Shown here piece after piece: positions 29,405 to 32,301 of a DNA stretch of 32,555 bases. The DNA comes from Bacillota bacterium. Lineage in GTDB: Bacteria > Bacillota > Sulfobacillia > DUSP01 > JBFMCS01. The stretch covers positions 1 to 32,555 of the forward strand of contig JBFMCS010000038.1 in assembly GCA_040754315.1 (NCBI GenBank), given 5' to 3'. Numbering within the stretch: the first letter of the stretch is position 1; each line of letters starts with the position of its first letter. The notes beneath the pieces were generated by a model that was not told the origin of the DNA, did no database searches, and saw only the letters and a program-made list of their open reading frames with translations. Position numbers and translations under genes: made by a program.

Positions 29405-29494
29405 TATAGCTCCCGAAAGGGCTAACCCGTCGAAAGGCGGGGGCGCAAAGCCGCGGGTCTAAAGCCTGAATGGCCATGACCGCCGGGCTACCGA
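29405..29494 (+). ncRNA. Cyclic di-GMP-I riboswitch (GEMM-I)
   Basis: The conserved GEMM-I core is easily read: GGGCTAACC followed by a GAAA tetraloop stem (CCGTCGAAAGGCGG), the GGGCGCAAAGCC segment with its tetraloop-receptor-facing bases, then GGGTCTAAAGCC and the closing GCCGGGCTACCG. These are the positions that bind c-di-GMP in Vc2-type aptamers. It lies in the 230-base gap between mbl and flhO and is followed by a terminator hairpin, so it should control the flagellar rod genes in response to c-di-GMP. A TAGAAT (29380-29385) just upstream could be the -10 box, but I found no matching -35. Confidence 0.93.
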
Positions 29495-29515
29495 AGGATG
29501 CACTCTTGTGAAAGC

Positions 29516-31476: not shown

Positions 31477-31923
31477 ATGTTGGATATCGCAGGAATCCAG
31501 GCGGTTTTGCCGCATCGCTACCCCTTCTTGCTGGTCGACCGGATACTGGAGTTGGACAAGGGACGCCGTGCCGTGGGGATCAAGTGCGTCAGTGCTAACG
31601 AGCCGTTCTTTGAGGGTCATTTCCCTGGCAGGCCCGTCATGCCCGGGGTCCTGGTGGTCGAGGCCATGGCCCAGGTTGGCGCCGTGGCGCTGCTGTCCAT
31701 GGAGGAACACCGTGGCCGGATTGCTTTGTTCGCAGGCATAGATAGCATGAGGTTCAGAAGGATGGTTGTGCCTGGGGATGTCCTGAAGATGGAGGTAGAG
31801 GTGCTGAAGACCCGGAGCAACGTGGGGAAGGCTCACTGCCGGGCCACGGTGGAGGGCGAGGTTAGCGCAGAGGGCGTCATCATGTTCGCCCTGGATGGCC
31901 AGGAACTGGTAGAGGAATCGTGA
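31477..31923 (+). CDS. fabZ: 3-hydroxyacyl-[acyl-carrier-protein] dehydratase FabZ
   Basis: FabZ removes water from 3-hydroxyacyl-ACP in each round of fatty acid elongation. The 148-residue hot-dog protein has the full family pattern: [13 protein letters not shown], then [20 protein letters not shown] carrying the catalytic His (in GHFPG) and Glu (in VVEAMAQ), and a C-terminal [11 protein letters not shown] segment. ATG 31477 follows GGAGGCG. Its stop codon TGA is part of a GTGA tetranucleotide (31920-31923), immediately after which the structured non-coding element begins. The gene is last in the flagellar transcript, as in B. subtilis. Confidence 0.96.
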
Positions 31924-32217
31924 GTCAACTACCCACGGCTAAAGCCGGTGGACTTGCAGGTAGCCCTGGAGAAGCGGCCCCCGCGTCCGGCTGGTTGACG
32001 GCAGCCCTGCTCTTTCGAGCAGCGAAGTTGCTTTATGGCAGCAACCGGCCAACGCAGAAGATTTTACGCGCGAAACGGTTCCTTCGCGCAACCCCATATC
32101 TTTTGTTGTGAAGGTGCAAACCGTTTCTCCGCAATGCGGAGTGCCTTAAGACAATTATAACGCAGGGAAGGCCGCATTCCTCCCAGGGTTAAAGACCCTG
32201 GGCTTCCTGCGGCCGGA
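31924..32217 (+). ncRNA. Putative solitary HEARO-type RNA (IscB omega-RNA-like), IS200/IS605-type ends
   Basis: This non-coding stretch folds into a string of perfect stems. CTACC/GGTAG (31929-31933 with 31959-31963) encloses a CCACGGCT-type hairpin. Then come CTGCTC/GAGCAG (32007-32022), GTTGCT/AGCAAC (32027-32045), GCGCGAA/TTCGCGC (32068-32089), CTCCGC/GCGGAG (around 32127-32141) and a final double hairpin (32170-32176 with 32208-32214 outside, 32182-32189 with 32195-32202 inside). The loop ACGGTT (32075-32080) can pair with AACCGT (32119-32124), a possible pseudoknot. First and last hairpins share the same plan (TAAAG loop, then CTT), like the left and right ends recognised by IS200/IS605 transposases. 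It directly follows GTGA, the insertion context I recall for HEARO elements. No protein is encoded. The right limit could extend to 32253. Confidence 0.7.
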
Positions 32218-32301
32218 TATCGTGAAGAAGGACAGAGGCTGAGCCTCGCTTCTCCCCGAGTTTAACAGAACAGTAGTTTGATTTTGCGAAGAAACTCTTT
32301 G

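Follow-up and report, generated by a model that had tools for sequence, protein, structure and literature searches.

The locus immediately behind the fatty-acid gene fabZ in contig JBFMCS010000038.1 (assembly GCA_040754315.1) of a Bacillota bacterium (lineage Sulfobacillia; DUSP01; JBFMCS01) raises the question of which kind of structured RNA it may encode and with which protein such an RNA might work. The window, i.e., the whole stretch of DNA analysed here, comprises 32,555 nt, and the first-pass annotation had read 31924-32217 as a solitary HEARO, the guide-bearing RNA of IscB nucleases. Its description of the structure proved accurate. All perfect stems that it claimed were located in the sequence; stems are found at 32007-32022 (CTGCTC/GAGCAG), 32068-32089 (GCGCGAA/TTCGCGC), 32127-32141 (CTCCGCA/TGCGGAG) and 32072-32127 (GAAACGGTT/AACCGTTTC), and the six-base pseudoknot-type match placed about 40 bases downstream corresponds to AGCCGG/CCGGCT with a spacing of 38 nt. 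The density of stems is also beyond chance as claimed, the region folding better than all 100 shuffles on the plus strand (z -4.0) and better than all 200 on the minus strand (z -3.7); folding strength alone is no guide to the strand of the RNA. Furthermore, the stretch is indeed gene-free, with fabZ ending at 31923, just before it.

The assignment to HEARO, on the other hand, had to be abandoned. The respective covariance model (Rfam RF02033) aligned over its full length but scored only 24 bits (E 0.008), far under the gathering cut-off of 83, while real HEAROs over the cut-off in 398 Bacillota genomes scored 84-162 bits. The HEARO core motifs CUACGUUA, UUAAACAG and AACAUUGGCGAGG, present in many aligned real HEAROs, are absent from 31924-32221. 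In addition, ordinary TnpB elements read in antisense yielded similarly weak scores, namely 21.2 and 21.0 bits for the elements of contigs C62 and C54 of the same genome and 23.2 bits for that of a Parageobacillus plasmid, and thus the resemblance of the window to HEARO is that of a TnpB right end (RE) read backwards. A search of the genome for IscB with NF040563, which HNH-only or very divergent forms could escape, gave no match, while the TnpB search found 18 places. Given also the minus-strand asymmetry of G-U and A-C pairs described below, a plus-strand HEARO working with an IscB encoded elsewhere is hardly credible, the full-length though weak alignment being the point in its favor. Weak HEARO matches should hence be treated with caution, as they can be TnpB right ends on the wrong strand.

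The proposal of a non-autonomous element of the IS200/IS605 type that lacks its nuclease gene was confirmed, since both of its ends match those of the TnpB elements of C62 and C54 (Table 1). Of the limits given earlier, the left one is exact, other copies in the genome beginning at the identical base, while the right one lies closer to 32221 than to 32217. The supposed rule of insertion after GTGA failed, as the GTGA at 31920-31923 is merely the end of fabZ and other copies carry AATCT, GATCT or TTGC at this position; the conserved GTGA sits at the opposite end of the element. Read on the minus strand, this TCAC is found in the same place beside the left end (LE) in C62, C54, C1 and C47. A second copy was detected in C31, where the 31924-32130 stretch recurs with 98% identity over 207 nt at a different site and with a different flank, and from which the LE has been lost. 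PATEs, or palindrome-associated transposable elements, are ends-only elements of the IS605 type (PMC7290912, PMC3119063). Like these, the window element has the LE and RE palindromes and no transposase or tnpB gene, is devoid of terminal inverted repeats, would need TnpA in trans and occurs more than once at unrelated sites (in the window and in C31, the latter without LE). However, PATEs are defined by their ends, whereas the window element has kept its guide-RNA scaffold in full, together with an additional RNA domain that covaries. No empty target site was found among close relatives.

Table 1. Features of the element and its surroundings in the window.
Feature	Position	Strand	Remarks
fabZ	31477-31923	+	NCBIfam PRK00006, 192.8 bits; element inserted directly after stop codon
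Nuclease-less IS200/IS605-type element, 298 bp	about 31924-32221	-	RE at 31924, LE at ~32221
Predicted 16-nt guide, TCACGATTCCTCTACC	31908-31923	-	Putative complement of fabZ 3' end; adjoins RE
Probable TnpB omega-RNA (reRNA) scaffold, 104 nt	31924-32027	-	Four stem-loops and 3' pseudoknot
Stem-loop 4, subterminal RE hairpin	31931-31953	-	Ends 7 nt before guide junction
Stem-loop 3	31956-31984	-	Four pairs changed on both sides
Stem-loop 2	31989-32006	-	Loop GUCAAC (31994-31999) can pair with 3' end GUUGAC (31924-31929), forming the pseudoknot
Stem-loop 1, CUGCUC-GAAA-GAGCAG	32007-32022	-	Re-paired and shortened relative to tnpB-coding versions
Linker between D1 and scaffold	32028-32054	-	Hairpin GUUGCU...AGCAAC (stem 32027-32045); common to C31
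Domain D1	32055-32104	-	Outer stem and inner stem-loop, with conserved asymmetric internal loop UAUGGGGUUGC/GCGUAAAA; model and profile matches
TATAAT, possible -10 element (weak)	32154-32159	-	For minus-strand RNA; isolated match
Left-end hairpin, large, terminal (GGCCGCATTCCTCCCAGGGT...ACCCTGGGCTTCCTGCGGCC)	32170-32214		Strand unassigned; same in C62, C54, C1 (93-96% identity)
TCAC (GTGA on plus strand), target site/TAM	32222-32225	-	Directly 5' of LE; kept in every copy with LE of this type

The nature of the RNA emerges from the part adjoining the RE. A covariance model built from ten foreign TnpB elements, with no sequence of the source genome (model R2), matched the minus strand over the scaffold end to end, with 70.8 bits and an E-value of 6.7e-15. 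When 14 scaffolds were aligned, four stem-loops and a pseudoknot between the loop of stem-loop 2 and the last six bases were supported, in total 33 pairs, of which 13 have changed on both sides; 95.2% of the cells are paired, while none of 500 shuffles was equally good and slid versions reached 27-45%. The pseudoknot helix shows compensatory changes in AmaTnpB (GUCAUG/CAUGAC), and a pseudoknot at the scaffold 3' end is general in TnpB and Cas12 guides (PMC10097598). The placement of stem-loop 4 likewise matches the subterminal hairpin described at no more than 10 nt from the 3' end of the scaffold (PMC10278001), and the predicted guide follows from applying a published rule (PMC8612924). Among the scaffold pairs, G-U occurs 45 times against 4 for A-C, and this asymmetry identifies the minus strand as that of the RNA. 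Together with the model match and the covariation, it replaces the plus-strand RNA of the first-pass annotation by a minus-strand TnpB omega-RNA with a 3' guide. The earlier view of a guide-type RNA that would depend on a nuclease from elsewhere thus stands, but not its assignment to IscB.

Over its first 100 bases the element is homologous, in antisense, to tnpB 3' ends of Parageobacillus, Sulfobacillus and others, and this homology breaks off where the mature scaffold known for AmaTnpB begins. The reading frame is broken in the window scaffold. That homology stops there and that stem-loop 1 has been re-paired and shortened argue that the RNA was kept while tnpB was lost. Between the window and C31 the scaffolds differ only by one C-to-U change, which keeps the pair. 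Given a conserved structure on the tnpB sense strand that finishes at the RE, and a TAM-like target beside the LE common to relatives, there is good support for identifying the locus as a TnpB omega-RNA element that lacks its nuclease.

AmaTnpB is the best characterised relative of this element. A TnpB of Alicyclobacillus macrosporangiidus DSM 17980 (L096), which is likely to be AmaTnpB itself, is 74% identical to the protein of C62. The TAM of AmaTnpB is TCAC, and its processed scaffold has four stem-loops and a length of 106 nt (PMC10278001), against 104 nt in the window. Both RNAs share the four stem-loops, the 3' pseudoknot, the subterminal 3' hairpin and the TCAC by the LE. Unlike the AmaTnpB element, the window element has no tnpB, its stem-loop 1 is free of coding constraint and an extra domain, D1, lies upstream of the scaffold.

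Within the source genome, the C31 copy alone shares the middle region of 140 bases that separates the scaffold from the LE and of which D1 is a part. Searching viral and genome contigs for exact 36-mers and 25-mers of this middle region returned nothing; structure models were required for the detection of D1, exact patterns being insufficient. Of 154 genomes from the class, 9 had a match to the D1 model (E<=0.05), as did 11 of 398 from the phylum (E<=0.01), searches that overlap and whose weakest matches (e.g., L201, L203) are doubtful, and D1 recurs in tnpB-less elements of about 20 Bacillota genomes. The possibility that the middle region is a unique captured sequence was accordingly dismissed. 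Four of the six pattern matches in viral contigs (L213, L215, L216, and L218) were chance-like or unrelated and were not used. A sequence profile built without the source genome recovered D1 in the window with an E-value of 2.6e-8. In 30 copies, 11 of the 13 pairs have changed on both sides and no shuffle matched the covariation score, although fitting the alignment to the model somewhat favors the structure; the internal loop (UAUGGNGUUGC/GCGUAAAA) is almost invariant. No family of Rfam 15 matched D1 at its cut-off. A protein-coding origin was rejected because copies contain frame-changing indels and stops; the D1 frame has a faint tblastn match to the TnpB C-terminus, carried mainly by the scaffold.

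With respect to gene content, tnpB was absent from all D1 elements tested, and none of the autonomous tnpB loci tested had D1. In genomes G117 and G118, D1 is followed by a scaffold matched by model R1 with 38-48 bits, and in G116 by one matched more weakly. In one plasmid each of Brevibacillus and Bacillus and in a viral contig, the sequence behind D1 is homologous, on the same strand, to the 3' end of the IS200_TnpB genes of phages iF6 and BSP18. A D1 element lies at 263464-263710 of plasmid CP139434.1 of Brevibacillus halotolerans B-4359. The scaffolds preceded by D1 thus belong to two or more clearly distinct types of TnpB, AmaTnpB-like in the window and IS200_TnpB-like in the Brevibacillus and Bacillus plasmids. 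In the copies G119, L195, L198, L202, and L205 an IS605-like hairpin closes the 3' part, which was not recognised as a known scaffold. Concerning expression, a sigma-70 promoter scan of the element region gave no full match, while a TATAAT-like box lies within about 50 nt upstream of D1 in 8 of 28 cases, compared with 3.2 expected and 1 in downstream controls, an enrichment which weakly backs transcription in the D1 direction.

A number of side observations were made on D1 elements of other genomes. L171, L178, L183, L187, L189, and L191 (G119) are related, noncoding and D1-bearing, several being conserved over about 450 nt; they look like long structured RNAs, and those scanned against Rfam gave no match. 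The single-contig genome G373 holds three near-identical noncoding D1 elements (L198, L206, and L210), each ending in GAGGTTCAC and having unrelated flanks, which points to recent transposition without a protein gene. Moreover, Ref70 (RF02841, Enterococcus sRNA 70) has no match in the window, while it weakly matches (30.7 bits, cut-off 115) a D1 element on a viral contig (L214:8078-8184), in the 3' half of the element. The sequence of this D1 element also matches tnpB 3' ends, and Ref70 may thus be a TnpB omega-RNA.

As regards a nuclease for the window RNA, the only TnpB of the source genome with ends of the window type is that of C62, where the order is LE-tnpB-RE, the TnpB frames lie on the minus strand and the gene is split into two frames; no intact cognate TnpB for the window element was found in the genome. 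The remaining TnpB frames, the longest of which has 391 aa (C49), are of different types, and the Y1 transposase (TnpA) genes are fragmentary. A working partner for the window RNA is therefore in doubt. We also noted another scaffold-like match at C39:35278-35378 (47.8 bits), without an adjoining TnpB domain match, which is possibly another decayed solo scaffold.

Since no intact cognate TnpB was found, the main rival to a guide acting in trans is decay: the element would be a decaying PATE formed by internal deletion of a TnpB element, its scaffold surviving only as it overlaps with the RE needed by TnpA, and the RNA would be inert. We regard this as a real possibility, albeit a minority one. 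Both ends are required for transposition regardless of any RNA, ends-only elements have already been described (PMC7290912, PMC3119063), and the same genome offers a clear case in C54:962-1224, an internal-deletion derivative of a TnpB element with about 40 tnpB codons left between LE and RE. The broken TnpB of C62 and the fragmentary TnpA genes fit this view. Furthermore, the window D1 has two changes at otherwise conserved positions (a mismatch in the outer stem and CUUG to CUUC), neither of which occurs in C31, and C31 in turn has lost its LE, so that both copies may be decaying. However, decay does not account for the conservation of the whole 104-nt scaffold beyond the terminal hairpin, or for the re-pairing of stem-loop 1 after the loss of the reading frame. 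Nor would plain deletion predict that D1 and a scaffold recur with other TnpB types in distant Bacillota. This recurrence argues that the architecture of D1 plus scaffold is functional as such, though the window copy may be fading.

In our opinion, the locus is thus probably best explained as a non-autonomous, PATE-like IS200/IS605 transposon without a nuclease, the product of which is a guide RNA. A minus-strand transcript would start near the LE and run through D1 and the scaffold into fabZ, and trimming of its 5' end by TnpB would leave the scaffold and about 16 nt of flank. The trimmed RNA would then load a TnpB made elsewhere and lead it to the empty site, i.e., TCAC and then the fabZ-end sequence, and cutting of element-free copies would restore or spread the element, with TnpA provided in trans for its mobilisation. 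That the window RNA itself acts as a trans guide for a TnpB encoded elsewhere is plausible at somewhat under even chances. TnpB omega-RNAs normally derive from the tnpB mRNA itself, and D1 would occupy the place of this mRNA, which normally precedes the scaffold. It might stabilise the 5' end of the free RNA or help a solo RNA to compete for TnpB, roles that we consider rather doubtful. At the level of the family, we tentatively propose that RNA-only IS200/IS605 elements across Bacillota parasitise TnpB by means of a trans guide composed of D1, as the shared 5' domain, and the scaffold of the exploited TnpB, the window element being a member.

The position of the predicted guide, complementary to the fabZ 3' end, also suggests an antisense regulator, in which the minus-strand RNA would act on fabZ mRNA or would guide a nuclease-dead, TldR-like TnpB repressor to the site. 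However, the flank differs in C31, and thus the target is set by insertion, and no dead TnpB partner was identified; this alternative is accordingly quite improbable.

A guide-RNA locus without its own nuclease gene is not unprecedented. Stand-alone, trans-acting IscB omega-RNAs (HEARO) are reportedly known since 2021 from Altae-Tran. The window RNA shares this arrangement with them, but is of the TnpB type, lies on the other strand, has its guide at the 3' end and lacks the HEARO core. Neither Rfam nor our literature search yielded a solo omega-RNA element of the TnpB type that has an additional conserved domain, which does not prove that none has been described. Should the RNA be used, elements devoid of a nuclease may exploit one that is produced elsewhere; guide-RNA-only elements would then parasitise RNA-guided nucleases and offer a precedent in nature for the guide genes that stand alone in CRISPR-Cas12. 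The binding partner of D1 would reveal how a guide RNA works apart from its nuclease gene.

Finally, some neighboring features deserve mention. An insertion sequence (IS) with inverted ends CTGTTAAACTCGGG starts at about 32255, and the 95-99 bases before it (32155-32254) are repeated beside the IS end at C27:123-221. This suggests that C27 probably continues the window locus and that the IS generated a very long target duplication, a feature known for IS1634, although the family of the neighboring IS is unconfirmed. C27:123-221 was not counted as an independent copy, as we judge that an IS with a ~95-bp direct repeat has divided one locus into this part and that in the window. An identical IS end occurs at positions 1-126 of the window, C23:1-126 and C60:1-127, closing several contigs; it belongs to a multi-copy IS that broke the assembly. 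Elsewhere in the window, a c-di-GMP-I riboswitch (29410-29495, 79.7 bits) precedes, by about 12 bases, an open frame read by eye as a flagellar hook-basal body protein.
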